Source: Aromatoleum toluclasticum ATCC 700605 (GTDB lineage Bacteria; Pseudomonadota; Gammaproteobacteria; Burkholderiales; Rhodocyclaceae). From it: a DNA stretch of 64,000 nt. Below the pieces are notes generated by a model, which was not told where the DNA came from, did not search any database, and saw nothing but the letters and a program-made list of their open reading frames with translations. Below are positions 8,847 to 48,698 of this stretch, one piece after another. How positions within the stretch are numbered: position 1 is the first letter of the stretch; every line of letters starts with the position of its first letter. A program made the position numbers and the translations under genes. Where the stretch lies: positions 186,001 through 250,000 of the forward strand of contig NZ_KB899492.1 in the NCBI RefSeq assembly GCF_000378245.1. The letters are read 5' to 3'.

Positions 8847-9385
8847 CTGCTGCGGCGACGGCGCAACTTCGTCCTTACCCGGCGAGCCCGCCCGGCCCGA
8901 TCGATTCGATCGCGGCAACCATCGCCCGCGAGGACAGGGACAGCCTGCGGCTGCGTTTCGAACTGGTGGGGAATCTCCGGCAGGTGGCGGTCCCGAGCCG
9001 CCGTGCCGCCCGAATGGCGGACGGGCTGTGGGCGCACACGTGCTGCGAGGCTTTCATCGGCATCCCCGGCAGCCCGGCCTATCGCGAGTTCAACTTCTCG
9101 CCCTCCGGCGAATGGGCCATCTACGACTTCGACGACTACCGCATTCGACGCCACGATGAATGCGCCGTGCCCGCGCCACGCATTTCGGTGACGCACGAAG
9201 CAGGACGCCTGATCCTCGAAGCCTCGATCGACGCGAAGGCAGTGACGCACGGCTCACCACTCCAGTTCGGCCTCACGACGGTCGTCGAAGCCCTCGACGG
9301 CACGCTATCCTATTGGGCCCTGCGCCACCCCGGTGCGCGCCCCGATTTTCACCTCCGCGACGCCTTCACGCTGACGCTGCCTTGA
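8843..9385 (+). CDS. DOMON-like domain protein
   Basis: 180 residues if translation starts at the GTG at 8843, which overlaps the receptor stop. The central block LWAHTCCEAFIGIPGSPAY, then EFNFSPSGEWAIYDFDDYR, matches my memory of the bacterial DOMON-like family (beta-sandwich, possible haem or sugar binding). There is no signal peptide with the GTG start and no CxxCH motif. Coupling to the TonB receptor gene suggests co-expression, but a joint function is only inferred. Spacing to the next gene is 26 bases. Confidence 0.75.
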   Translation: MTAAATAQLRPYPASPPGPIDSIAATIAREDRDSLRLRFELVGNLRQVAVPSRRAARMADGLWAHTCCEAFIGIPGSPAYREFNFSPSGEWAIYDFDDYRIRRHDECAVPAPRISVTHEAGRLILEASIDAKAVTHGSPLQFGLTTVVEALDGTLSYWALRHPGARPDFHLRDAFTLTLP

Positions 9386-13248: not shown

Positions 13249-13620
13249 TCAGCGCTCCGGCTCGCCCTTGATCCCGCGCACGAAGGCCTTGCTGCCGTCG
13301 CGCACGGTGTGGCCGATCGTGATGCCGGTGCGCTTCATCGCGTCCCAGGTCACGACCGCTGCGTCACGCGCGGTATGACCGACCGTCTTGCCGGCCTTCC
13401 CGGCAGCCTGCCCCACTTCCTTGCCGGCATCGCGCGCGCCGGTGCCGATGTCGTGCATCGTCGAACCGACGCCGTGGCCGACGTCCTCGGCGGTCGTCGA
13501 ACCCTCTCCGGCCGCGGCAGACAGCGATGCCGTCACGCCCAGCGCGAGCACCAGGCCGACGAGTAAGCGGGTAATGGAAGCCGGTCCGCGAGACCGGCGG
13601 TTTCGCATGCGTGTTTGCAT
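13249..13620 (-). CDS. Small secreted protein with amphipathic Gly/Ala/Lys repeats
   Basis: 123 residues starting MQTRMRNRRSRG, ATG 13620 with AGGAG upstream. A cleavable signal (LLVGLVLALGVTASLSAAAG) precedes a low-complexity region with recurring units such as DVGHGVGSTMHD, DIGTGARDAGK, EVGQAAGKAGK and TVGHTARDA, an 11-residue-like periodicity resembling LEA or apolipoprotein helices. It may protect or coat membranes or proteins under stress; this is inference from repeat character only. It is flanked by its own terminator and lies downstream of metH, but a 207-base gap with an inverted repeat suggests separate transcription. Confidence 0.7.
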   Translation of the reverse strand: MQTRMRNRRSRGPASITRLLVGLVLALGVTASLSAAAGEGSTTAEDVGHGVGSTMHDIGTGARDAGKEVGQAAGKAGKTVGHTARDAAVVTWDAMKRTGITIGHTVRDGSKAFVRGIKGEPER

Positions 13621-36701: not shown

Positions 36702-37547
36702 TCAGGCGGCCGGGCCCGCCACCCGCGAACATTGCTCCCCCAGCCCCGAAATGCCTAGCCGCATCGTTTCGCCGTGCCGCAGGTAGCGCGGCGGGGAGCG
36801 GAGGAAGCCGCTGCCGGGCGGCGTGCCGGTGAGGAGCACGTCACCGGGGAACAGCGTCATGTAGCGGCTGGCGCAGGCGACGAGTTCGGCGCAGGTGAAC
36901 CGCATGTCGGTGGTGTTTGAAGCCTGCATCGTTTCGCCATCGAGGGTGAGGCGGAGGTCCAGCGCCTGCGGGTCGGGGACTTCGTCGCGGGTGACGAGCC
37001 AGGGGCCGAGCGGGCAGAAGGTGTCGCAGCTCTTGCCCTTGTCCCAGGTGGGGCCGCGCTCGAACTGGAAGCCGCGCTCGGAGACGTCGTTGGCGATGCA
37101 GTAGCCGGCAACGTGCTCGAGCGCGCGATCAGGTGACACGCGGCTCGCGCGGCGGCCGATCACCAGCGCGAGTTCCACTTCCCAGTCGCCCCGGGTGGCG
37201 CCCGGCGGCAGGCGCACGGCGTCGCGCGCACCGCACAGCGACGACGGGGCTTTCAGGAACAGAATCGGTTCGTCGGGCAGGGTGTGGCCGGCGGCGGCGT
37301 GCGCGCGATAGTTGAGGCCGGCGGCGACGATCTTGCCGACATGGGCCACGGGCACGCCGAGGCGCGGGCGACCGGGCACGGCGGGGAGCGCGCGCGGGTC
37401 GAGGCGGCGCAGCGCGGCGAGGCGGACCGGGGCGAGGGTCGCGGCGTCGATGTCGGCGACGTGGGTGGAGAGGTCGCGCAGCACGCCCTCGGCATCGATC
37501 AGGCCGGGCCGTTCGCGCCCGCGCGGGCCGTAGCGGACGAGCTTCAC
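36702..37547 (-). CDS. Fumarylacetoacetate hydrolase-family protein
   Basis: 281 residues, ATG 37547, four bases after the SDR stop. FAH-fold features: VGKIVAAGLNYRAHA, PILFLKAPSSLCGARD, the metal-binding DWEVELALVIGR (E-x-E), YCIANDVSERGFQ, WDKGKSCDTFCPLGPWL and the closing GDVLLTGTPPGSGF. Family members cleave C-C bonds of beta-diketo acids or hydrate/isomerise 2-oxo acids with Mg2+. Last gene of the nine-gene U32 operon; it may hydrolyse or hydrate a pathway intermediate. Confidence 0.88.
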   Translation of the reverse strand: MKLVRYGPRGRERPGLIDAEGVLRDLSTHVADIDAATLAPVRLAALRRLDPRALPAVPGRPRLGVPVAHVGKIVAAGLNYRAHAAAGHTLPDEPILFLKAPSSLCGARDAVRLPPGATRGDWEVELALVIGRRASRVSPDRALEHVAGYCIANDVSERGFQFERGPTWDKGKSCDTFCPLGPWLVTRDEVPDPQALDLRLTLDGETMQASNTTDMRFTCAELVACASRYMTLFPGDVLLTGTPPGSGFLRSPPRYLRHGETMRLGISGLGEQCSRVAGPAA

Positions 37548-37551
37548 GGGC

Positions 37552-38430
37552 TCACGCCGGCCAGGTGTGGCTGCCGCCCGCGTTCATCGCGAGATTGCCG
37601 CCGTCGGCCGGCAACAGCACGCCGTTGACGGCGCGCGCGGCGTCGGAGGCGAGGAAAACGGCCGGGCCGACGTAGTCCTCCGGATCGAGCAGGCGCCCCT
37701 GCGGCAGGCCGGCGAGGATGCGCGGCAGGACGTGGTCGCGGAAGCGCGGCGTTTCGAGGTGGGCGCGCAGGCCAGGCGTGAGGGTCTGCGCGGGCAGGAT
37801 GGCGTTCACGCGGATGCCGGCGCCGGCGTATTCGACGGCGAGTTCGCGCGTCATCTGGTGCACGGCGGCCTTGGTGCAGCCGTAGGGCAGCGCGCCGCGC
37901 CCGAGCGCCGATTCCCCGGCGTTGGAGCCGATGTTGATGATGCTGCCCTGCCCCGCCGCCAGCATGCGCCGCAGTGCGGCCTGGCAGCACAGGAAGTAGC
38001 CGGTAAGATTCACGGCGAGCATGCGCTCCCAGTCGGCGGCGGCGAGTTCGTGCGGACGCACGCGCGCAGGAAAGGCGAAGGGGACGTTCACGAGGATGTC
38101 CAGGCGGCCGATGTCGTCGTCGATCGCATCGAACAGCGCCTCCACGGCGGCGGCATCGGCAATGTCGGTGACGCGCGCGAGCGGCGCGGGGCTGCCCGGG
38201 GCCAGTTCGCCGGCGAGTTCGCGCGCGGTTTGCGCGAGGCCTTCGGCGTCGATGTCGGCGATTGCGACGCGGGCGCCGGCGCGCGCGAGGCCCAGTGCCA
38301 ATGCGTGGCCGATGCCGCCGTTGGCGCCGGCGCCGGTGACGAGCGCGACGCGGCCGTCGAGGTCAAACCGGGGCGAGGTGGGCGGTGGGTTGTGCGGCGA
38401 GCGGGGCGGCGGGGTCGTGGCGGGATTCAT
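37552..38430 (-). CDS. Short-chain dehydrogenase/reductase
   Basis: 292 residues from ATG 38430 with GGAG upstream. A Pro-rich N-terminal tail precedes the Rossmann motif TGAGANGGIG. The NNAG motif is altered to LVNVPFAF; catalytic Ser is in IINIGSNAGES, and Tyr/Lys are in YGCTK. The coding region overlaps the 3' end of the phosphotransferase-like gene by 68 bases. NAD(P)-dependent oxidation or reduction of an alcohol/ketone is expected. Part of the U32 operon. Confidence 0.88.
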   Translation of the reverse strand: MNPATTPPPRSPHNPPPTSPRFDLDGRVALVTGAGANGGIGHALALGLARAGARVAIADIDAEGLAQTARELAGELAPGSPAPLARVTDIADAAAVEALFDAIDDDIGRLDILVNVPFAFPARVRPHELAAADWERMLAVNLTGYFLCCQAALRRMLAAGQGSIINIGSNAGESALGRGALPYGCTKAAVHQMTRELAVEYAGAGIRVNAILPAQTLTPGLRAHLETPRFRDHVLPRILAGLPQGRLLDPEDYVGPAVFLASDAARAVNGVLLPADGGNLAMNAGGSHTWPA

Positions 38431-41002
38431 CGGCAGAGGCTCCGGAGGCGGATTCGAGCAGGGCAATGCGTCCGCTGGCACCGTCGAGGACGATGCGCGC
38501 ACCGTCGGCAATCAGGCGCGTCGCGTCGGGCAGCGCGATCGCGGGGATGCCGGCTTCGCGCGCCTGGCAGGCGCTGTGGGCGAGGAGGCCGCCGACTTCG
38601 ACGACGAGCCCCGCGACGATGCGGAACAACGGCGTGACGCCGAGGTTGGCGGCGCGCAGGACGAGGATTTCGTCGCCGCGCCAGCCTTCGGGCGGCACCG
38701 GCTGGCCGGGGGCGAACACGCGCGCGATGCCGCAGACCTTGCCGGCCGACAGCGCTGTGCCGTTCCAGGCGCGCCCCTCGCCCGCCTCACCGGCGCGCGC
38801 ACTCGGCACGCCGATGGCGTCGAGGCGCGAACCGAACACGACGGACGGGACGCAATGGAGGCGCGCGGCGAGACGCGCCATCGCGTGCTCGGCGGCACGG
38901 CGCTCGGCGCGCCGGCGCAGGCCTGCGGGGTCGCGCAGCGCGGCAGGCAGTTCGCGCGTTTGGAGGTGGAAGATCAGCCCGTCCGGCCAGTCCAGGTGGG
39001 CACCGAGGCGCAGCGCGGCGCGCCGGATCAGGGCATGGACGGCGGTGTAGTGGTGCTTGATCGTCTCGCGCAGCGGCAGGAAATGCTGCGCGAAGGCGAG
39101 CGCTTCGAAGAGCGCCGCACGCTCCGCTTCGTCCACGCCGGCGGTGGCGAGCCGCTCCCCGAGCTCCGCTTCGGCCGCGCGGCGCGCGGCCTGCTGGCGC
39201 GCGAATTCCGCAGCGGGCCGGCGGCCGCTCGCACGCAGGTTCGCGAGCAGTTCGTCGAAGCGTCCGGGATCTTCGGCCAGGCGCGGCTCGGCAAGTTCGA
39301 GTTCGTTGTCGGCGCAGTGGCCGTACGCGGCGAGGTAGTCCGCGCGGCTGCGGCGCCCCGCGGCGACCTCCTCCAGCCACAGCGCCTGGCGCGTGATCAG
39401 GCTGCCGGGCAGGCCGGACAGCAGGCGCGCGCACAGCGCCTCGCCGTCCATCCCGAAACAGGCTTCGAGGCTGCGGCGGACTTCGGCCGCGAAGTGGAAG
39501 CCGAGCCGGGCGGCGATGACGAATTCGACGCAGGGCCCAGTGCGCAGGAAGCGCACGAGCTCCGAAACGGCGGCGACCACCCTGCGCGGATCGCCGACCC
39601 TGCCGGTTTCGGCGAGCACGGCGGGCACGCCGAGGCGCGGCTCGACCTGCGCCTCGTAGCGGGCGAGGAAGTCGCGCGCCGCGACACGCAAGGCCTGCTC
39701 GAAACGCGCCCGGGCGGCCGCGGCCGGTGCGTCGAGGGGAAGCCGGCCGTACAGGCGCACTTCGGGGTAGTTCGCGAGCGAGGGGTCGGCCGCGATGCGC
39801 TCGAGATAGGAGTCGACCGCCGGTTCCCCACCGTCGCCGAAAGTCGCGGCGTCGACTTCCAGGTTGAAGCAGAGCTGCCCGGCGACCAGCTCGTACAGGT
39901 GATCGACGCAGCGCGCATCGAAGCGGTAGCCGAGGCGCCTGCGGCCGCTCACGATCGCGCCGCGACGGCCGGCAAAGCTGTCGCGGAACAGACCGAAACT
40001 CATCGCCGTCGGCGTCGGCAGCAGTTCGCCGACGTTGCCGTTGCTGAGCACGAGCTGGCTGCCGTGCAGCACGCCGCGCCGGCGCAGATCGACGAACTTG
40101 CGCGCAAGGCGCCGCCGCTCGCCGGCGAGATAAGTCTCCAGCCCCGCGCCGCCTGCCGTGCCCGCGGCGGCGAGCGGACGCGCCTGCAGCAGCCACACGC
40201 CGCACAGGTCGACGGCGAACTCGACATCCTGCGGGCCACCGAAGAAGGCCTCGGCGCGCAACGCGAGCTGCGCGACCGCGCGCGCCTCGCCGGGCGTCAG
40301 GCAAGCGACGCGCGCGCGCTGCACACGCACCGGGTGCAAGCCATCGACGGCGAGTGCCTCCTCCTTGTGGCCGATGCGCTTGCGCAGCAGGCGTCCGGCG
40401 TGCGAGAGGACGAAGCTGTCGCCGGCATGCCGGCCCGCGGCGAGCGGTTCCGCCAGCCCCCATACGGCATCGATATGCACCTCGCGGCGCCGGGTGTCGA
40501 GCGGTGCGCGCGTGTAGGCGATGCCAGCGGCGATCGCCGGGACGAGGCGCTGCACGAGGATCGCCAGCGCCGCGTCGGCGTGCCCGAGCCGCGCGCGGTA
40601 CTCGGCTGCGGCCGGTTCCGCCCACGACGCGATGCAGCGTTCCATTGCGGCGGGCAGCGCCGCCTCGCCCTGCACGCCGAGTTCGGTGGCGTAGACGCCG
40701 GCGTAGCTCGCGCCCTCGCCGTCCTCCTCGATCGCGGAACTGCGCACCGCGACGCGCCCGCCGAGCTCGCGATAGGCCGCCTGCAGCGCGGCACGAACGT
40801 CCTCGCGGGCAGCCCCGCCCGCGCGCCACGCCGCGACGGCCGCCGCGGTGACACAGAAGCCGGGACTCACCGGGAAGCCCGCGGCGAGCAGCAGGCCCTG
40901 GCGCAGCGCCTTGTTGCCCACCGCGCGAGCGTCCGCCGGCGTGAGCGCGGCGAGGTCGCGGATCCAGGCGGACGCCGCCGGGGCGCCCTCCCCGATACTC
41001 AC
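38363..41002 (-). CDS. PEP-synthase/rifampicin-phosphotransferase-like ATP-dependent dikinase
   Basis: 879 residues from a GTG at 41002 overlapping the U32 stop (GTGA). The N-terminal PEP/pyruvate-binding ATP-grasp has GNKALRQGLLLAAGFPVSPGF and VRSSAIEEDGEGASYAGVYATE. A long middle region has no PEP-synthase counterpart. The C-terminal swivelling His domain has GGLLAHSACQAREAGIPAIAL, with phospho-carrier His809. The PEP-binding TIM barrel of true PpsA or PPDK is missing. This architecture (ATP-grasp, variable acceptor domain, His domain) is that of rifampicin phosphotransferases and phenylphosphate-synthase-like systems, which phosphorylate an organic acceptor. In this operon it probably activates an unknown metabolite. 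Confidence 0.82.
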   Translation of the reverse strand: MSIGEGAPAASAWIRDLAALTPADARAVGNKALRQGLLLAAGFPVSPGFCVTAAAVAAWRAGGAAREDVRAALQAAYRELGGRVAVRSSAIEEDGEGASYAGVYATELGVQGEAALPAAMERCIASWAEPAAAEYRARLGHADAALAILVQRLVPAIAAGIAYTRAPLDTRRREVHIDAVWGLAEPLAAGRHAGDSFVLSHAGRLLRKRIGHKEEALAVDGLHPVRVQRARVACLTPGEARAVAQLALRAEAFFGGPQDVEFAVDLCGVWLLQARPLAAAGTAGGAGLETYLAGERRRLARKFVDLRRRGVLHGSQLVLSNGNVGELLPTPTAMSFGLFRDSFAGRRGAIVSGRRRLGYRFDARCVDHLYELVAGQLCFNLEVDAATFGDGGEPAVDSYLERIAADPSLANYPEVRLYGRLPLDAPAAAARARFEQALRVAARDFLARYEAQVEPRLGVPAVLAETGRVGDPRRVVAAVSELVRFLRTGPCVEFVIAARLGFHFAAEVRRSLEACFGMDGEALCARLLSGLPGSLITRQALWLEEVAAGRRSRADYLAAYGHCADNELELAEPRLAEDPGRFDELLANLRASGRRPAAEFARQQAARRAAEAELGERLATAGVDEAERAALFEALAFAQHFLPLRETIKHHYTAVHALIRRAALRLGAHLDWPDGLIFHLQTRELPAALRDPAGLRRRAERRAAEHAMARLAARLHCVPSVVFGSRLDAIGVPSARAGEAGEGRAWNGTALSAGKVCGIARVFAPGQPVPPEGWRGDEILVLRAANLGVTPLFRIVAGLVVEVGGLLAHSACQAREAGIPAIALPDATRLIADGARIVLDGASGRIALLESASGASADESRHDPAAPLAAQPTAHLAPV

Positions 41003-41979
41003 GCCGCGACTCCGGCATGGAGCGCGCGTCCCGCCCGTTCCGCGCCGCGGATGCGGGAGTCGTCGCGGTTGTCGCGCTCGCCGCTCCAGCGGTCCTTGAG
41101 CTCCAGCCATTCCGGCGCGAAACCTTCGACGCGCTCGCCGCGCAGCGCCGCGTCCAGCACGCGACGATAGAAGCCGACGATGTCCGCGACGAGCGGCGCG
41201 GAGCGTTCGCGCCCCGGAATCTTGAAGCGTTCGACGCCCATCGCGACGTATTCCGGCACTTCCCACAGCAGCAGCTCGGGGCTGCTCTTCAGGCGCGGCG
41301 AATCGGGATGGCGGCGCTCGCCGGCGGTGAGCGACCACTCGCCGCGGCAGATGCGGTAGCAGCTGCCGCCGCGCGCCGCCGAGCCGAGGTAGAGATCCTT
41401 GTCGTCTTCGCCACGCAGGTGCTTCACGTGGAAGTAGCTGCTCGAATAGCAGCGCCCCGGGCAGATGCGCCCGCGATGCGGGTTCTGGAACAGGAAGGCT
41501 TCGAGCTTCATCGGGCTCGCGGCGCGGATCTGCGCTGCCTCGGCGACACCCCAACGGTAGGGCAGCACGACGTAGTCGGCCCCCAGCTCGTCGTAGAAGC
41601 GCACGTCCTCGACGTTGAACACGCCGGCGGTGACGCTGACGTGGATGTCCAGCGCGGGATGCGCGCGGCGCACCAGCGGGATCAGGCCGGGGTCGCAGAC
41701 CATCACGCCGCTCACGCCGATCTTCGCGAAGCTCGCGACGCGGTCGAGGAAGAGGCCGACCTCGCCGGGCGCGGGCATCACGTTGATCGCGACGCGCACG
41801 TCCTTGCCGTCGCGCGCGGCCTCGGCGACCAGTTCGGCGATCGCGCCGTCGTCGAGCTCGTCGGTGGCCGGGCGGCGGCTCCAGCCGCGCGGGCCGACGT
41901 AGACCGAATCGGCACCGCGCGCGAGCGACGCGTAGGCCATTTCGAGGCTGCCACCGGGGGCCATCAGGATCGTCATCAT
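40999..41979 (-). CDS. U32-family protein 1 (UbiU/RlhA-like, Fe-S)
   Basis: 326 residues from ATG 41979, overlapping the preceding stop (ATGA). TIM-barrel start MMTILMAPGGSLEMA, then VRVAINVMP, DIHVSVTAGVFNVEDVRFYDELGADYVVLPYR and RFKIPGRERSAPLVADIV. Cys173 and Cys177 (CPGRC) and Cys207 and Cys211 (SCYRIC) match the Fe4S4 ligand spacing type of UbiU-like proteins. The SSSY after the second Cys parallels UbiU. Although called peptidases, characterised relatives (UbiU/UbiV, RlhA, TrhP) support O2-independent hydroxylation. Probably one subunit of a U32 complex. Confidence 0.85.
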   Translation of the reverse strand: MMTILMAPGGSLEMAYASLARGADSVYVGPRGWSRRPATDELDDGAIAELVAEAARDGKDVRVAINVMPAPGEVGLFLDRVASFAKIGVSGVMVCDPGLIPLVRRAHPALDIHVSVTAGVFNVEDVRFYDELGADYVVLPYRWGVAEAAQIRAASPMKLEAFLFQNPHRGRICPGRCYSSSYFHVKHLRGEDDKDLYLGSAARGGSCYRICRGEWSLTAGERRHPDSPRLKSSPELLLWEVPEYVAMGVERFKIPGRERSAPLVADIVGFYRRVLDAALRGERVEGFAPEWLELKDRWSGERDNRDDSRIRGAERAGRALHAGVAA

Positions 41980-42923
41980 TCACCTCGGGAAAGGAGGCCG
42001 GCGGCGAGGAGGCCGGCCGGCAGTGCGTTTCGGGGAGCGCCGGGGGGCGCCATCAGCTCGGCAAGTTCCTGCAGCCGCGCGGCCATCTCCGGCGCCCACG
42101 CCAGCCCGACGCGCGCGAGCCACTTGCGCCGCAGCGCGGCGCCGGCCCAGCTGCCCGCGGGCACGCCGGCGATACGCGACCATAGGCCGGGATCCGCGCG
42201 CAGGCGCGCCGCCGCCGCGCCCGCCGAGCGTACGAAGCCCTGCAGCAGCGCGGGCGCCGAACGCGACAGGTCCTCGTGGCACGCGAAGAAACTCGTCGGC
42301 ACCTGCGGCCGCGGCACTGGAAAGTTCGCAAGCAGCCCCGCCAGGTCGCAGACCTCGCGGAAGGCCCCGCCCGCGACGAGTGCGGGCACCTGGTGCCAGT
42401 ACAGCAGCGCGGCATCGAGCCCGCCGCCGCAGAGCGCATCGTGCAGCGCGCTCTTCGAGCCGGCAGTGACGCAGCACGACACTTCGGCCGGATCGAAATC
42501 GTGGCGCAGCCGGCACGCGGCGCGCAGCAGCAGCCAGTTCTTGTCCTGCGCATGCACGACGCCGATGCGCTTGCCCGGCAGGTCCGTGAGGCCGCGCAAC
42601 GCGCCCCTGCGCGGGGCGACGAGGCCGCCGAAGATCGCGCCGTAAGGTGCGACCGCGACGAGCGGCAGGCCGGCCGCGCGATGGCGCGCGAGCGACAGCC
42701 AGTCGCTGTCGATGAGCTCGACCTCGCCGTCGATCAGCCGCGCCTCGGTCGCGTGGCGCTCGCCGCACATGCGGTCGTCGCCCAGTTGCAGCGCGAGGCG
42801 ATAGCCGTTGGCCTCGTCGAGGCCGCAGGCGACGATCGCGCGCATCAGCCATGCGCCGCTTCCGGTGGCCTCGAAGGCGGCGCGCAGGGTGGGCAGCGCG
42901 TCACGCGCCGTCTCAGCTGACAT
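41976..42923 (-). CDS. NMT1/SsuA-fold protein without signal peptide
   Basis: 315 residues from ATG 42923, overlapping the U32-2 stop by 11 bases. The fold is that of NitT/TauT-type binding proteins: ARLIDGEVELIDSDWLSLARHRAAGLPLVAVAP, LRGLTDLPGKRIGVVHAQDKNWLLL, then ALHDALCGGGLDAALLYWHQVPAL. The N-terminus (MSAETARDALPTLRAAFE) has no signal or lipobox, and no permease or ATPase is nearby. A cytoplasmic role is therefore likely: ligand sensing, or an enzyme on the same fold as THI5 or MqnA/MqnD. Which one cannot be told. Confidence 0.75.
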   Translation of the reverse strand: MSAETARDALPTLRAAFEATGSGAWLMRAIVACGLDEANGYRLALQLGDDRMCGERHATEARLIDGEVELIDSDWLSLARHRAAGLPLVAVAPYGAIFGGLVAPRRGALRGLTDLPGKRIGVVHAQDKNWLLLRAACRLRHDFDPAEVSCCVTAGSKSALHDALCGGGLDAALLYWHQVPALVAGGAFREVCDLAGLLANFPVPRPQVPTSFFACHEDLSRSAPALLQGFVRSAGAAAARLRADPGLWSRIAGVPAGSWAGAALRRKWLARVGLAWAPEMAARLQELAELMAPPGAPRNALPAGLLAAGLLSRGE

Positions 42924-43947
42924 AGCTCGCCGCCCGGTCCATCAGGGTGTCGACGCGCTTTGCCTTCTCCCGCACCCAGCGCACGCGCAGTTCGGCAAGC
43001 TCTGCGGTGTGGTGGCCGAGATCGGCCGCGCCGGCGGCGACCTCGTCGATCGCGCGGCGGTAGAAGCGCACCAGGTCGCGGATCATGCCGACCGGCCGTT
43101 CGCGCCCGGAGAGCTTGAAGCAGCTGACCCCGGCCGCGACGAAGGCCGGCAGCTGCGCGAGCATCAGGCGGGCGTCGCGGCGCAGCTTGATCTCGACGGG
43201 ATCGCTCCCCACCGCGCCGAATTCCCAGTTCGCCTGGCACACGCGATAGCACTCCTTGGCGCCGCGGTTCGCGCTGCCATGGAAGTCGCGGTTGCCCTCG
43301 ACCTCCTTCCAGTCGCGAAAGCGCAGGTAGCTGCTCATGATGCATTTGCCGGGGCACAGCTTGCCGGTCTGCACCGTCTCGAACAGGAAGGTCTCCAGCC
43401 CGATGTCGCTCGCGCGCCGCACCGCCTCGATCTCGGCGACGTCCCAGCGGTAGGGCAGGATGATCACGTCCGCGCCGGCGTCGCGGTAGAAGGCCGCATC
43501 GGCGAGGTTGCTGATGCCGCTGCCGATGCTCACGTGCAGCACCGTGTCCGGAATCTCGCGGCGCAACGCGCGCAGCAGGCCCACGTCGGTGACGATGAAC
43601 CCGGACGCGCCATCGGCCGCGTAGCGCAGCGCCTTGTCGACGAAGCGGCCGAAGTCGTATGGCGTCGGGAAGGTGTTGAGCACCACGCGCAACTCCGCGC
43701 CGCGGCTGCGGGCGTAGGCGGCCGCCTCGCGGATCGCGTCGTCGCTCATCTCGGACTCGTAGGGGCGGCGCGAGAAGCCGAGCGGTCCGACGTAGATGAT
43801 GTCTGCGCCCTCATCGACCGCCGCGTGCGCCATCTCGAGCGAACCGGCCGGGGCGAGCAGCTTGGCGCCAGGCCTCGCGCCGGGCCGCCCCAAGGAGGCC
43901 TGCGCCCCCTTGGGGGGCAGCGAACGAAGTGAGCGTGGGGGCACCAT
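42913..43947 (-). CDS. U32-family protein 2 (UbiU/RlhA-like), N-terminus encoded by a dispersed repeat
   Basis: 344 residues from ATG 43947 (GGAG site), one base after the upstream stop. The barrel starts only at residue 28 (AKLLAPAGSLEMAHAAVDEGADIIYVG). The first 27 residues are translated from a palindromic repeat. Core motifs: LHVSIGSGISNLADAAFYRDAGADVIILPYR and CFKLSGRERPVGMIRDLV. Fe-S ligands Cys198, Cys202 (CPGKC) and Cys233, Cys237 (ECYRVC). Paralogous to U32-1 and U32-4. Confidence 0.84.
   Translation of the reverse strand: MVPPRSLRSLPPKGAQASLGRPGARPGAKLLAPAGSLEMAHAAVDEGADIIYVGPLGFSRRPYESEMSDDAIREAAAYARSRGAELRVVLNTFPTPYDFGRFVDKALRYAADGASGFIVTDVGLLRALRREIPDTVLHVSIGSGISNLADAAFYRDAGADVIILPYRWDVAEIEAVRRASDIGLETFLFETVQTGKLCPGKCIMSSYLRFRDWKEVEGNRDFHGSANRGAKECYRVCQANWEFGAVGSDPVEIKLRRDARLMLAQLPAFVAAGVSCFKLSGRERPVGMIRDLVRFYRRAIDEVAAGAADLGHHTAELAELRVRWVREKAKRVDTLMDRAASYVS
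43868..43944. repeat. Dispersed palindromic repeat inside the 5' end of a U32 gene
   Basis: Minus strand: CCCCCACGCTCACTTCGTTC, then GCTGCCCCCCAAGGGGGC, GCCTCCTTGGGGCGGCCCGG. It has internal inverted arms (GCCCCAAGG with CCTTGGGGGGC). I recognise this as an intergenic repeat common in betaproteobacteria. Here it lies immediately after the ATG and is read in frame. Confidence 0.75.
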
Positions 43948-43948
43948 C

Positions 43949-44893
43949 TCAGCTCCGCCCGATGTAGCGCTGGCCCGCGCCTTCGAAGTAGTAGCCGTTG
44001 CACAGGCCTTCGCGCGCAAGGCTCGCGAGCGTGTCGAGTGCCGGTGCGAAATCCCCCGCGGCCTCGCCGGCAAAAGCCCGCTCCAGCGCATCGCGGTAGA
44101 TGCGCCCGACGGCCGCCGCATAGCCCGGCGCCTCGCCCTTGTTATGCACGTAGAAGTGCTTCAGGCCCATGCCCGCGAGCCGCTCGCCGTGCTCGACCAT
44201 GCACAGGTCCTTGCCCGACAGCGTCATTCGCCCGGTGTCCTTGAGCGACCAGTCGGCGCGGCTGCCGTCGTCGCGGCCGCGCTTCAACCAGTGCTCCTGC
44301 GTGCATTGGTAGGAACAGCTACCCTCGCCGCATGCGCCCTCGGCACCCTCCTCGCTGTGCTCGAGGATGAAGCAGGTCTCCGAAATCACCAGCGGGATCT
44401 TGCCGTGCACCGGCACCAGCACCTCGATGTCGGCGTGCTCGGCGATGTAGCGCACCTCGTCGAGCGAAAGTTCCGGATTCGGATACACCCGCGTCACGCC
44501 GTGGTCCTTGAGCACCTTCGCGGTCTCGTGCGTGTACAGGTTGCCGAACACGCCGAGGTGGATAGGCGCCGTGCAGCCGCGCTCGCGCAGCATGCGCAGC
44601 ACGCCGAGGTTATGCACCTCGATGGCATCGAAAGGCAGCGCCAGCGCGGTGTCGATCACGTCGCCGACCCACGCGAGGTCGTCGTTGCCGGGCACCGCAT
44701 AGAGGCGCAGGTAAGCCTTCTGGCCGCGCGCATGCACGTGCTCCAGCCCGGCTGCGAGCAGCTCCGCGTGCGAGCTGAAGTTGTTCGGATACTCGGGACA
44801 GGAGAAATCGCCGAGGTAGATCGCGTCGTAGGCCGAGAAATCGCCCTCGCGCAGTTCCTTCAGGTTGCCGACGTCGGTGGATAGTTCGAACAT
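43949..44893 (-). CDS. U32-family protein 3 (UbiV-like)
   Basis: 314 residues from ATG 44893 with GAGGAG upstream. It differs from the other three. YLGDFSCPEY near the N-terminus (Cys32) parallels the YLGEAVCSKR segment of UbiV. LVISETCFILEHS (Cys174) and ACGEGSCSYQC (Cys188, Cys193, Cys197) parallel UbiV's ARCFTARS and Cys-rich segment. The C-terminus LCNGYYFEGAGQ parallels CNGYW in UbiV. It should bind one Fe4S4 cluster and pair with a UbiU-like partner from this operon. It is not assigned as the ubiquinone UbiV because the context differs. Confidence 0.82.
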   Translation of the reverse strand: MFELSTDVGNLKELREGDFSAYDAIYLGDFSCPEYPNNFSSHAELLAAGLEHVHARGQKAYLRLYAVPGNDDLAWVGDVIDTALALPFDAIEVHNLGVLRMLRERGCTAPIHLGVFGNLYTHETAKVLKDHGVTRVYPNPELSLDEVRYIAEHADIEVLVPVHGKIPLVISETCFILEHSEEGAEGACGEGSCSYQCTQEHWLKRGRDDGSRADWSLKDTGRMTLSGKDLCMVEHGERLAGMGLKHFYVHNKGEAPGYAAAVGRIYRDALERAFAGEAAGDFAPALDTLASLAREGLCNGYYFEGAGQRYIGRS

Positions 44894-44904
44894 GTCCAGT
44901 CTCC

Positions 44905-45885
44905 TCAGATGGGGGTGGCGGCAACGCGCCGGGATTCGTCGATCGCCTGGCGCAGCAGGCGGTTGTCGCGCTTTGCACGCTCGGTCATCCAGCGCCCGCG
45001 CAGGGTCTCGAGCTCGGACGCGAAGACGGATAGATCCGGGCGGTCGGATTCCAGGATGGTGTCGACCGCGCGCCGGTACACGCGCACGATGTCGCGCACC
45101 AGCACCGCCGAACGGTCGCGTCCCGGCACCTTCAGGCAATCGACGCCCGCGGCGAGGTAGTCCGGCAACTCCTCCAGCCACAGCGCCGGGTTGGTCTTGA
45201 TCGTCATCGGCAGCCGGTAATCGATGTCGTCGACGTTGAAGTTCCATTCCGTCTGGCACACCCGCAGGCAGTCGCCGCCGCGCGAGGCCGAGCCGAAGAA
45301 GTGGTCCTTGCCCTCGGTGTCGAGCCAGCGGCGGAAGCTGAAATAGCTGCTCATGTTGCATTTGCCCGGACATATCTTGCCGCCCGACGGCGTCTTAAAC
45401 AGGAAGACCTCGATGCCGACCTTGCCCGCGCCCTTGATCTGGCGGATCTCCTCCACCGACAGGCGATAGGGCAGCACGACATAGTCCGCGCCGAGTTCGC
45501 GCAGGAAGCGCACGTCCTCGTAGTTGGTGATGCCGCAGCCGACGCTGGTATGCACGTTCACATGCGGCAGGCGCTCCTTCACCAGCCGCATCGCGCCCAG
45601 GTCGCTGATCATGAAACCCTGCGCGCCCCAGCCCGCATAGCGCTCGACGCGCTCGACGAACATCGGCAGCTCGATCGAGCTCGGCAGCGTGTTCACCACC
45701 ACGCGCACCTCCTTGCCGCGCGCCGCCGCGTAATCGATCGTGTGGCGGATCTCATCGTCGTTCAGTTCGTCCTGCGCGCCGCGCCGGCTCCAGCCGACGA
45801 CGCCGACGTACACCGCGTCCGCCCCCTCGTCGAGCACCGTCTTCGCCATCTCCAGCGTGCCGCCGGGAGCCATCATCATCACCAT
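44905..45885 (-). CDS. U32-family protein 4 (UbiU/RlhA-like, Fe-S)
   Basis: 326 residues from ATG 45885 (AAGGAG, spacing 8). MVMMMAPGGTLEMAKTVLDEGADAVYVG, VRVVVNTLP, NVHTSVGCGITNYEDVRFLRELGADYVVLPYR and CLKVPGRDRSAVLVRDIV define the fold. Fe-S ligands Cys172, Cys176 (CPGKC) and Cys206, Cys210 (DCLRVC). Closest in pattern to U32-1 and U32-2. It lies 11 bases before the UbiV-like gene and 11 after the aminotransferase fusion. Confidence 0.85.
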   Translation of the reverse strand: MVMMMAPGGTLEMAKTVLDEGADAVYVGVVGWSRRGAQDELNDDEIRHTIDYAAARGKEVRVVVNTLPSSIELPMFVERVERYAGWGAQGFMISDLGAMRLVKERLPHVNVHTSVGCGITNYEDVRFLRELGADYVVLPYRLSVEEIRQIKGAGKVGIEVFLFKTPSGGKICPGKCNMSSYFSFRRWLDTEGKDHFFGSASRGGDCLRVCQTEWNFNVDDIDYRLPMTIKTNPALWLEELPDYLAAGVDCLKVPGRDRSAVLVRDIVRVYRRAVDTILESDRPDLSVFASELETLRGRWMTERAKRDNRLLRQAIDESRRVAATPI

Positions 45886-45896
45886 AGGGATCTCCT

Positions 45897-47330
45897 TCAG
45901 GCCGGGACGGCGTCCCGGCAGTCCTGGTCTTCGCGCAGCAACTCGCCCAGCGCGGCGAGGAAGCGCGCGTTCTCGACGGGCAGGCCGACGCTCACGCGGA
46001 TGTGTTGCGGCAGGCCGTAGCGGGCCATGCACTTCACCGCCACGCCGCGTTCGCCCAGGCGGGTGAGCGCATCGCGCGGCGCGCGCAGCAGCACGAAATT
46101 CGCCGCCGAAGGCACGAAGTCGACGCCAAGGCGCGCGAGGCCGCTCATCAGCACGTCGCGCTCGCGCGCATTCGCCGCGATGCTGGCGCCACGATGTCTT
46201 TCGTCCTGCAGCGCCGCGAGCGCGGCCGCCTGAGCGAGCGAGCCGAGGTGGTATTGCGGGCACAGTGCCGTCATGCGCCGCACGATCTCCGGCGGCGCAT
46301 AGCCGTAGCCGATGCGCAGGCCCGCGAGCCCCTCGACCTTCGAGAGCGAACGCAGGACGAGCACGGGCGCCCCGTCGCGCAGGTCGGCGATGCCGTCGAT
46401 CAAGTCCTGATCGAGCGCATAGTCGCGATACGCCTCGTCCAGCAGCAGCGCCGCGCCAGGGGGCAGTGCGTGGCGAAGACGGGTCCAGTCCGCCGGGGAC
46501 ATCAGCGTGCCGGTCGGGTTATGGGGCGATGCAACGACGACCATCCGTGTCGCCGGCGTGATGCGTTCGCGGAAGGCGTCGAAGCGGTAGTCCGCTCCGT
46601 CGAGCGGCACGCGAACCACCCGCGCACCGGTTCGGTCCGCCGCGGAACGATAGGCCGGAAAGGCCGGGTCGGGAATCAGCACCTCGCCGCCCGAGCCGAC
46701 GAGGCTGCGCATCGCCAGATCGATCAGCTCGCAGGCGCCATTGCCGATCAGCACGTGCGCCGGCGACAGTCCCGCCCGCCCGGCGAGCAAGCTGCGCAGC
46801 GCCGCTGCATCGACGGACGGATAGCGGTGCAACTGCGCCAGTTCGCGCGTGATCGCGGCGCACGCCGCGGGCGACGGTCCGCAGGGGTTTTCGTTGCCGG
46901 ACAGATCGACGGCGGGCACAGCCGCGCCGGCGTAATGCGCGTGGATCGACGCGACCAGCGCGGGATGGGGATCGGCCTGCGGGCGCGCGGCGCGCACCCG
47001 GGCGAAGGCCGCGTCGAGCGGCAGGCCGAGGTGCTCATGCAAGAAGCACGCGGCCAGCGCCGGCGAGCGCGAGATTCCCTGCTCGCAGTGCATCAGCACG
47101 CGGTGCCCCGCCGCAATGCGTGCGGCAAGGAAGGCCGCCGCCGCGCCGATCGTCGCGCCCGGCAGCGCCACGCGGTCGGCCACGGCCAGCCCCAGCTGCA
47201 GCGCCACCTCGGCCGGGCGGGCCAGCGGCGCCAGCGACAGCAGCGTATCGATGCCCGCCGCCTGCAGCGCCGCGCCGTCGGCGGCGTCGGCGCTGCTTCC
47301 CACGGCCAGCTGCGGCATCACGAAATCCAT
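45897..47330 (-). CDS. Fusion of a dual-specificity-phosphatase domain and a HisC-like PLP aminotransferase
   Basis: 477 residues from ATG 47330 with GGAGG upstream. Residues 1 to about 135 form a cysteine-phosphatase fold with the CX5R loop HCEQGISRSPA (Cys82, Arg88). Residues 140-477 form a fold-type I PLP enzyme: LSGNENPCGPSP, IGNGACELID, SPHNPTGT, DEAYRDY and SLSKVEGLAGLRIGY with Schiff-base Lys331. The aminotransferase resembles histidinol-phosphate aminotransferase or CobD-type enzymes acting on phosphorylated substrates. Joining it to a phosphatase suggests successive transamination and dephosphorylation, as in the last part of histidine synthesis. It heads the U32 operon. A regulatory role for the phosphatase domain is possible. 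Confidence 0.85.
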   Translation of the reverse strand: MDFVMPQLAVGSSADAADGAALQAAGIDTLLSLAPLARPAEVALQLGLAVADRVALPGATIGAAAAFLAARIAAGHRVLMHCEQGISRSPALAACFLHEHLGLPLDAAFARVRAARPQADPHPALVASIHAHYAGAAVPAVDLSGNENPCGPSPAACAAITRELAQLHRYPSVDAAALRSLLAGRAGLSPAHVLIGNGACELIDLAMRSLVGSGGEVLIPDPAFPAYRSAADRTGARVVRVPLDGADYRFDAFRERITPATRMVVVASPHNPTGTLMSPADWTRLRHALPPGAALLLDEAYRDYALDQDLIDGIADLRDGAPVLVLRSLSKVEGLAGLRIGYGYAPPEIVRRMTALCPQYHLGSLAQAAALAALQDERHRGASIAANARERDVLMSGLARLGVDFVPSAANFVLLRAPRDALTRLGERGVAVKCMARYGLPQHIRVSVGLPVENARFLAALGELLREDQDCRDAVPA

Positions 47331-47404: not shown

Positions 47405-47426
47405 ATCATGAAGCGGAGATCATGAT
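47405..47426. promoter_or_regulatory. ATCATG-N10-CATGAT dyad upstream of the U32 operon
   Basis: A second inverted repeat with 6-bp arms in the 174-base gap between the MFS exporter gene and the operon. On the minus strand it lies between a TTGCAG hexamer and a CATGAT hexamer, so it would overlap a weak promoter if those are the -35 and -10 elements. Confidence 0.35.
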
Positions 47427-47504
47427 TTTCTGCAAATCCCTCTCGAGAATATGGTTATGACCAATCCACCGACCCGGCGTGCCGCCCCGCAGCACACGCA
47501 CGCC

Positions 47505-48698
47505 TCAGCGCACGCAGCCGCCCGCGCGCCGGCACCAGGCGATGAAGCCGATGCCGCCGAGCGTCAGGAAACCGGCCATGCCGGCCGCCAGCGTCAGCGG
47601 CGAATACCACAGCATGGGCGCGAAGATGCCGGCGATCGTCGAATTGACCCCGACCTGCAGGAAGCTCTGGCAGCTCGACGCCAGGCCGCGGTGCGACGGG
47701 AACAAGTCCAGCGCCAGCAGCGTCACGCTCGGCATCGACAGCGCCATGCCGAAGGTGTAGAGCACGATGGGCAGCACCGACCACGGCAGGCCGGGCGGCA
47801 GCAGCGTGGCAACCAGCAGGTTCGCAGCCGCCGCCGTCGCCATGATCGTCATGCCGATCGCGACCGTGCGGCGCACGTGCCAACGCCCGGCAACCCGCTC
47901 TGACAGCGCGGAACCCGCGCTCATGCCGACCACCGCGGGCACGAACAGCCAGCCGAATTCCTGGGCGCTGAGGCCCAGGTGCTGCATCAGGAAGGCCGGC
48001 GCCGACAGCACGTAGAGGAAGAAGCCGTTGAAGTTGAAGGCCGCCGCCGCGCTCAGCAGCACGAAGGCGCCGCTGCCCAGCACCCGCCGGTAGGCGCGCC
48101 AGAGCAGCACCGGATGCAGCGGATGGCGGTGCTCGGCCAGCAGGGTCTCGGGCAGGAAGCGCCAGGTGAGGAAGGCCAGCAGCGTGCCGAAGAAGGCGAG
48201 GAAGAAGAAGATCGCGCGCCAGCCCGCCGCGGCCAGCAGCAGGCCGCCGATGACAGGCGCGATCGCCGGGGCGACGCCGAAGATCAGCATCACGCGCGAC
48301 ATCAACCGCTGCGCGTGCGCGCCGTCGAACAGATCGCGGATCACCGCCCGCCCCACCACCATGCCCGCCCCGCCGACCATGCCCTGCAGCGCGCGGCCCA
48401 CCCATAGCCATTCGATCGACGGCGCCAGCGCGCACACCAGCGAGGCCAGCGCGAACAGCACGCTGCCGGCGATGAGCACGTGCCGGCGCCCGAAATGGTC
48501 CGCGAGCGCGCCATGCCACAGCACCATGAAGGCGAAGGTCGCCATGTAGGCGGTGAGGGTCTGCTGGATCTGCAGCTGCGAGGCGCCGAGATCCGTCGCC
48601 ATCGCACCGAACGCGGGCAGGTAGGTGTCGATCGAAAACGGCCCGATGGCGGCGAGCGCAGCGAGCACAAACGCGAGCCAGGGCGAGGAGGCGGGCAT
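47505..48698 (-). CDS. Bcr/CflA-type MFS drug/metabolite exporter
   Basis: 397 residues with 12 predicted helices. The N-terminus has the Bcr/CflA motif IGPFSIDTYLPAFGAM, the A-like loop is GALADHFGRRHV, and motif C is VMLIFGVAPAIAPVIGG. It uses the proton gradient to export drugs or metabolites. It is transcribed in the same direction as the U32 operon, 174 bases before its first gene, so it might export the operon product; this is inference from position. Confidence 0.88.
   Translation of the reverse strand: MPASSPWLAFVLAALAAIGPFSIDTYLPAFGAMATDLGASQLQIQQTLTAYMATFAFMVLWHGALADHFGRRHVLIAGSVLFALASLVCALAPSIEWLWVGRALQGMVGGAGMVVGRAVIRDLFDGAHAQRLMSRVMLIFGVAPAIAPVIGGLLLAAAGWRAIFFFLAFFGTLLAFLTWRFLPETLLAEHRHPLHPVLLWRAYRRVLGSGAFVLLSAAAAFNFNGFFLYVLSAPAFLMQHLGLSAQEFGWLFVPAVVGMSAGSALSERVAGRWHVRRTVAIGMTIMATAAAANLLVATLLPPGLPWSVLPIVLYTFGMALSMPSVTLLALDLFPSHRGLASSCQSFLQVGVNSTIAGIFAPMLWYSPLTLAAGMAGFLTLGGIGFIAWCRRAGGCVR

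Follow-up and report, generated by a model that had tools for sequence, protein, structure and literature searches.

A nine-gene operon with four U32 proteins in Aromatoleum toluclasticum shares a predicted operator with pyrroloquinoline quinone genes and is a candidate for oxygen-independent cofactor supply

The nine-gene operon

The window analysed here is a 64,000-nucleotide stretch of the 5.92 Mb genome of Aromatoleum toluclasticum ATCC 700605 (contig NZ_KB899492.1, positions 186,001 to 250,000). It contains, at 36702-47330 on the minus strand, a nine-gene operon that encodes four proteins of the peptidase U32 family and is preceded by a predicted operator also found ahead of genes for the synthesis and uptake of pyrroloquinoline quinone (PQQ). 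A first-pass annotation had described nine genes on one strand belonging to the families listed below, and open reading frames (ORFs) and Pfam searches confirmed it, the NMT1 match being weak. In the order of transcription, with window positions, the features are:

47420..47432, plus strand: operator core TCATGATTTTCTG (CAGAAAATCATGA in the operon direction), 102 bp upstream of the first gene
36702-47330, minus strand: nine-gene operon, ORFs confirmed
45897..47330, minus strand: AT, a DSPc dual-specificity phosphatase domain fused to a HisC/CobD-type pyridoxal phosphate (PLP) aminotransferase (Pfam DSPc and Aminotran_1_2)
44905..45885, minus strand: U1, UbiU-like U32 protein of a new clade (Pfam Peptidase_U32, tree, cysteine alignment)
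43949..44893, minus strand: U2, UbiV-like U32 protein (same evidence as U1)
42913..43947, minus strand: U3, UbiU-like U32 protein of the new clade (same evidence)
41976..42923, minus strand: NMT, NMT1/THI5-fold protein without apparent signal peptide (Pfam NMT1, E 2e-5, weak)
40999..41979, minus strand: U4, UbiU-like U32 protein of the new clade (same evidence as U1)
38363..41002, minus strand: PEP, dikinase of the phosphoenolpyruvate (PEP) synthase type (Pfam PPDK_N and PEP-utilizers)
37552..38430, minus strand: SDR, short-chain dehydrogenase (Pfam adh_short_C2/adh_short)
36702..37547, minus strand: FAH, fumarylacetoacetate-hydrolase family enzyme (Pfam FAA_hydrolase)

The genes are tightly packed, with intergenic distances of 11 (AT-U1), 11 (U1-U2), 1 (U2-U3), -11 (U3-NMT), -4 (NMT-U4), -4 (U4-PEP), -68 (PEP-SDR) and 4 bases (SDR-FAH); the stop/start overlaps or gaps of 12 bases or less noted in the first reading are thus found at every junction except PEP-SDR, where the genes overlap by 68 bases. 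The start of U3 is uncertain: the ATG at 43947 gives 344 amino acids, and the true start possibly lies near 43866, 9 of 11 orthologues starting about 26 codons later under a mechanical start rule.

The operon products look like working enzymes, judging by their sequences, because catalytic motifs are kept across the orthologues. In AT, which scores 260 bits against NCBIfam hisC (cut-off 277), the phosphatase motif HCxxGxSR is retained in 11 of 11 orthologues and the PLP-domain motif S[LW]SK in 10 of 11, with K331 itself invariant in all 11. The dikinase is composed of an ATP domain, a middle part of its own and a C-terminal phosphohistidine domain, whose loop AHSACQARE is present in 12/12 orthologues; its top solved relatives (5hv2, 5hv1 and 5fbs) are named PEP synthase, the best stretch being limited to the ATP domain. 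The YxxxK motif of SDR and the DWEVE motif of FAH are likewise kept (12/12 each), and FAH is closest to the NCBIfam sugar-acid hydrolase family DhyDRhmHlse (374 bits, cut-off 500). No hydrophobic N-terminus of NMT was seen by eye, the only way in which it was looked for, no signal-peptide program being applied, and this agrees with the earlier description of the protein as signal-less; the AlphaFold model of NMT was unusable (mean predicted local distance difference test score 45.5).

Distribution of the gene set

Of 17 Aromatoleum genomes searched with the dikinase, ten (counting that of the window) have a full-length orthologue, and the mapping of all nine proteins gave an identical gene order at 9/9 other Aromatoleum loci. 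Two metagenome-assembled genomes (MAGs) also carry the set. A Sideroxydans MAG (locus L026) contains all nine genes in the same order with FAH alone inverted, and a Rhodocyclaceae MAG has the set split between two contig ends, one with genes 1-7 (L060) and the other with the remainder of gene 7 and genes 8 and 9 (L028); these two ends are taken as one MAG because the place of PqqC is the same in both. The co-occurrence in the same order, proposed as a check in the first-pass annotation, was therefore found in 10/17 Aromatoleum genomes and two MAGs, with the inversion and the split just mentioned.

The operon was detected in 6/249 genomes of the family and in one genome each at the levels of order (1/399), class (1/369) and phylum (1/398), each time the window's own; these scans used strict thresholds (1e-50 or 1e-70), which distant relatives would not pass. 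A contig scan with one operon protein gave 8 loci, and U1 had no match among plasmids at E 1e-40. On this sequence evidence, the operon is a rare, intact and conserved gene set, neither an ordinary operon nor an artefact. Upstream of the operon and on the same strand, the window contains a major facilitator superfamily (MFS) transporter gene (47505-48698), and eight of the other nine Aromatoleum copies have an MFS match at this place.

U32 proteins

All four U32 proteins exceed the Pfam cut-off for Peptidase_U32. The genome has nine U32 matches, five of them outside the operon, including housekeeping copies of UbiU, UbiV, RlhA and TrhP (58%, 39%, 56% and 60% identity to the E. coli proteins, respectively). 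The fifth non-operon protein (G000:C21:95006-95743, in L037) falls in no assigned group and has a long tree branch; U4 and the contig C21 U32 protein are 36% identical over 108 residues.

U1, U3 and U4 share 41-46% identity with one another, at most 29% with the compared UbiU, RlhA and TrhP proteins and 24-26% with E. coli UbiU, and U2 is remote from them in sequence. In the tree, U1, U3 and U4 form one group (100/99) outside the UbiU, RlhA and TrhP branches, and U2 joins UbiV (98/96, with a long-branch warning). None of them reaches the families of UbiU or UbiV proper, the best NCBIfam scores being 129 bits for U1 against UbiU (cut-off 440) and 61 bits for U2 against UbiV (cut-off 275); a profile search found no solved relative of U1, U3 and U4 at E 0.01.

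The CxxxC-type cysteine sets noticed earlier take the form CxxxC-x29/30-CxxxC in U1, U3 and U4 (C172, C176, C206 and C210 in U1) and are invariant in 11/11 orthologue rows; the four cysteines share alignment columns with C170, C177, C193 and C197 of TrhP and with those of RlhA. In U2, C32, C174, C193 and C197 occupy the columns of UbiV C39, C180, C193 and C197, described as the ligands of a 4Fe-4S cluster (PMC6747719). Each of U1-U4 thus carries the four cysteines of a predicted 4Fe-4S cluster. The assignment of three UbiU-like and one UbiV-like proteins made in the first reading holds, because the tree grouping and the cysteine columns agree. That reading would have been abandoned had the U32 proteins grouped with the known hydroxylases and the other genes varied between genomes; U1, U3 and U4 lie outside those branches and the set of other genes is constant.

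A predicted operator common to the operon, pqqA and pqqU

All but one of the 12 operon copies retain the 13-bp core CAGAAAATCATGA, which is located 102-108 bp ahead of the first gene in all ten Aromatoleum copies. In Sideroxydans it is the longest word in common with the window's upstream region (13 bases; 2/1000 shuffles reach this length). A scan of six genomes allowing one mismatch gave, in each of five Aromatoleum genomes, the operon site and one other, about 100 bp ahead of a TonB-dependent receptor gene, and in the Rhodocyclaceae MAG one site, about 100 bp ahead of pqqA; G013 has one more site with a mismatch (L072), and none of the tested genes lies near it.

The best NCBIfam match of the receptor is PqqU (661 and 665 bits, the cut-off of 1200 being unreached). 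The PQQ-binding signature of PqqU reported in PMC12124388 comprises Y/F/W99, R304 and R365, and F99, R304 and R365 are present in all 11 Aromatoleum PqqU proteins that were aligned, of 17 found. Q84, Q121, Q308, K274, Y481 and R536 are likewise present in 11/11; N477, by contrast, is replaced in every one of the 11 proteins and Q310 in a single one. A metallophore function, considered on account of the TonB receptor under the common element, was dropped, as the receptor matches PqqU. The gene pqqU occurs in 17/17 Aromatoleum genomes, and the operator core precedes it in 13/17, four of which have no operon, so the receptor was rejected as an operon-specific partner.

The exact 15-mer TRCAGAAAATCATGA has 26 sites in 22/249 genomes of the family (reversed-pattern control, 0): 5 before the operon, 7 before pqqA, 13 before pqqU (11 directly and 2 via an intervening alpha/beta-hydrolase-like gene followed by pqqU) and one elsewhere, inside another reading frame (L117). 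The operon and receptor classes are partly expected, because the pattern was chosen from their sites; the pqqA class was not put in. With a matrix trained on 13 pqqU and 8 pqqA sites and no operon sites, the operon site is the best in the 64-kb window (23.2, the next place scoring 7.8). At several pqqA genes the full element is a dyad, TCATGA-TTT/AAA-TCATGA, and 14/14 scored pqqA upstream regions hold some form of the operator (the best score being attained in 0-3 of 200 shuffles).

Clusters of the composition pqqADE-puuD-serC-pyrD have been proposed for PQQ synthesis independent of molecular oxygen (O2), Azoarcus sp. DN11 being named (PMC12423496). The seven exact pqqA sites fall into three groups: four stand before pqqADE-puuD-serC (L151-L154, stretches chosen because they carry the site; pyrD was seen in one), two lie between pqqC and pqqA (L125, L127) and one precedes pqqA-pqqD (L126). 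Because sites also lie at pqqC-pqqA clusters, the operator is to be read as a signal for PQQ and not for O2-free PQQ synthesis. Defining the PQQ regulon of this family by the operator of pqqA and pqqU, we find the same predicted operator before the operon, and the operon very probably belongs to this regulon. As an alternative signal, an FNR box upstream of the operon was rejected: the best match has 7/10 positions in the window, and 125/500 shuffles reach it.

Several further observations concern the operator and its surroundings. Histidine kinase and LuxR-type response regulator genes are found near pqqE in two stretches (L134:11330-13454 and L158:245-2225; 46.9% and 59.6% identity between the pairs) and are a candidate regulator of the PQQ operator. 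In L128 and L129 (around 1500-2600) the gene that follows the operator, directly upstream of pqqU, encodes an alpha/beta-hydrolase that resembles proline iminopeptidases by eye and is perhaps a PqqA-processing peptidase. The pqq-less genomes G006 (L089) and G005 (L093) retain pqqU with no operator ahead of it, an arrangement that might fit pure scavengers; in G007 (L091) pqq genes are present, yet pqqU is also without the operator.

Linkage and co-occurrence with PQQ genes

The operon and pqqABCDE share a contig in the Sideroxydans MAG, FAH and pqqE being about 4.3 kb apart (in stretch L134, also represented by L026, pqqE ends at 9216 and FAH begins at 13506); the interval holds an MFS gene and the genes of a histidine kinase/LuxR-type regulator. 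All 12 operon genomes contain pqqC and 11/12 contain pqqE; two Aromatoleum genomes, G005 and G006, have neither pqqE nor pqqC, and the operon is found in neither. A puuD-serC pair adjoins pqqE in 7 of 15 pqq-positive Aromatoleum genomes: the operon only is present in 8, puuD-serC beside pqqE only in 5, both in 2 and neither in 0. An overlap this small has a probability of 0.007 if the genomes are independent. In two Aromatoleum genomes (L145 and L146), gaps of about 5.8 and 1.2 kb lie between pqqB-pqqC-pqqA-pqqD and pqqE-puuD-serC.

Directly upstream of the Sideroxydans operon there are NRDD and radical S-adenosylmethionine (SAM) genes (L026:278-3317). Their combination resembles the make-up of an anaerobic ribonucleotide reductase, and we count it for a role of the operon in the absence of O2.

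A possible route to PQQ without O2

According to PMC12423496, the last step of PQQ synthesis needs O2, and Klebsiella pneumoniae and Pseudomonas aeruginosa, which have the canonical genes only, fail to produce PQQ when grown anaerobically; the growth of Hyphomicrobium denitrificans on methanol with nitrate, on the other hand, requires PQQ. The operon is a candidate, besides puuD-serC-pyrD, for the O2-independent step or steps of PQQ supply. The first-pass annotation had read it as a dedicated pathway with an unnamed substrate; the conserved set and its U32 types bear this out, and the link to PQQ now moves the reading towards a PQQ-related pathway. We propose, with a probability of roughly one half, that the operon supplies PQQ without O2, as a branch in which U32 heterodimers would replace the chemistry of PqqB and PqqC. 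The proposal rests on the operator common to pqqA and pqqU, the linkage to pqqABCDE in one genome, the co-occurrence with pqq genes and the cysteine sets of the U32 proteins.

In such a branch, PqqA, PqqD and PqqE would still yield the Glu-Tyr cross-linked precursor by radical SAM chemistry, for which O2 is not needed, and the O2-dependent hydroxylation (PqqB) and oxidation (PqqC) would be replaced by operon products. U2 may pair in turn with U1, U3 and U4 for the hydroxylation of the tyrosine-derived ring, prephenate or another non-O2 donor serving as the oxygen source. The dikinase could transfer a phosphate to an oxygen atom of an intermediate, which would thereby be protected or activated, and the phosphatase domain of AT would take the phosphate off again; phenylphosphate synthase and rifampicin phosphotransferase likewise phosphorylate an oxygen. 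The PLP domain of AT, possibly in parallel to SerC of the pqqADE-puuD-serC-pyrD cluster, and SDR would carry out amino-group or ring-closure and dehydrogenation steps, and FAH and NMT might take part in further ring processing or in substrate binding.

A number of points weigh against this proposal. The nine genes seem to exceed what the missing PQQ steps need, and no evident role in PQQ chemistry can be assigned to NMT, FAH or the phosphatase; it is chiefly for this surplus that the probability is put no higher. As pqqC is retained in all 12 operon genomes, a replacement of PqqC is not forced, and in one MAG (G929, 89% complete) no pqqE was seen. The same MAG, which lies outside Aromatoleum, has, besides the operon, a fragment of serC and a pyrD-like gene close to its pqqB. 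Within the genus, the complementarity of operon and puuD-serC, the latter sought only beside pqqE, is suggestive only, because the states follow clades; supported branches of the PqqU tree leave one independent pair, which is not significant. As to the operator, in the twelfth operon copy (L060) the element has diverged to TCATGG-TAA-TAATGA, and the operon site of the window (23.2) scores below the lowest training site of the matrix (29.3). Nine of the 14 pqqA regions have a weak variant (7.7-12.9), among them that of the window's genome, whose own pqqA site scores 8.7 (3/200 shuffles reach this); furthermore, the operator also stands before pqqU and before pqqA adjoining pqqB/pqqC, beyond the presumed O2-free clusters.

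Since the surplus genes have no clear place, an operon of the PQQ regulon with another product is retained beside the proposal, as a possible although doubtful alternative: under the same regulator, a PQQ surrogate, a modified PQQ or a compound for quinoprotein dehydrogenases would be made. The operator and linkage data indicate a link to PQQ and no given reaction, and the nine genes, with their aminotransferase-phosphatase, dikinase and FAH, resemble a full small-molecule pathway; on the other hand, the remaining operator targets, pqqA and pqqU, both serve the acquisition of PQQ itself, and operon and puuD-serC are nearly complementary in Aromatoleum, though along clades. A related, unlikely variant is a second complete O2-free route that would lead to PQQ or a substitute quinone cofactor from small molecules by means of the U32 proteins, the phosphorylating ligase and the PLP enzyme, without the PqqA peptide.

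The U32 family, the THI5-fold protein, the NRDD and radical SAM neighbours in Sideroxydans and the fact that Aromatoleum is a denitrifying genus would also suit an anaerobic pathway unrelated to PQQ, e.g., for an aromatic or pyrimidine compound, with the element as a general anaerobic promoter signal. We regard this as very unlikely: a general signal would be expected at many genes, and 25/26 exact sites belong to pqqA, pqqU or the operon, which, moreover, adjoins pqqABCDE in Sideroxydans. THI5-type pyrimidine synthesis in particular was set aside, the NMT1 match being weak and the NMT model unusable. Least probable would be a role in degrading or salvaging PQQ, or adducts of it, imported through PqqU. 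FAH- and SDR-type enzymes are common in catabolism, and the family closest to FAH, albeit below its cut-off, comprises sugar-acid hydrolases; control in common with pqqA, a gene of synthesis, and the hydroxylase-type U32 proteins argue for making, and 7/17 Aromatoleum genomes are without the operon although 17/17 have pqqU.

If the proposed supply of PQQ without O2 is true, the U32-based branch would be one answer to the question of anaerobic PQQ supply, U32 chemistry would extend from ubiquinone and RNA to a second cofactor, and a PQQ operator and regulon would be defined in this bacterial family, with nine testable genes. A literature search joining peptidase U32 and pyrroloquinoline quinone, outside which lay most subscription papers and all bioRxiv preprints, found nothing. 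In the accessible part of PMC12423496, which treats both UbiU/UbiV and PQQ, no role of U32 proteins in PQQ synthesis was found, and the word U32 is absent.

Comparison with known systems

The dikinase has the order of ATP-binding part, substrate part and phosphohistidine domain in common with PEP synthase, PigC/RedH and rifampicin phosphotransferase; it differs in its own middle part and in its scores, 199-214 bits for the three best matches against cut-offs of 883-1350, and stays below the family cut-offs as PigC/RedH or as rifampicin phosphotransferase.

The operon and the pqqADE-puuD-serC-pyrD clusters share the operator, found before such clusters in relatives, an aminotransferase gene, the same genus and a roughly complementary occurrence. 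Unlike the operon, the clusters are without U32 proteins; puuD, serC and pyrD are not among the nine genes according to Pfam and NCBIfam, and no linkage of the operon to pqqADE was observed in the Aromatoleum stretches inspected. PqqB and PqqC, of the O2-dependent late steps, are presumed to serve the same conversion as the operon, but they have no homologue among the nine genes in the Pfam and NCBIfam searches and are present in addition.

UbiU-UbiV resembles the operon in the U32 family, in the presence of UbiV-type and UbiU-type members together and in the four-cysteine sets (PMC6747719). The operon differs in that it has no UbiT/SCP2 gene and has three UbiU-like paralogues in a clade of their own, and the genome has a separate UbiU and UbiV besides. 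With TrhP and RlhA, U1, U3 and U4 share the cysteine positions, but the operon U32 proteins are shorter and fall outside the TrhP and RlhA branches. TrhP is described as carrying out prephenate-dependent tRNA hydroxylation without O2, whether prephenate donates the oxygen being left open (PMC6599085).

UbiU-UbiV hydroxylates ubiquinone precursors independently of O2, standing in for O2-dependent hydroxylases (PMC6747719), and TrhP and TrhO are a precedent for paired O2-free and O2-using routes, the O2-using enzyme doing the same job in air (PMC6599085). By analogy with ubiquinone and tRNA hydroxylation, we infer that the operon may be an O2-free set doubling the O2-using PqqB and PqqC.

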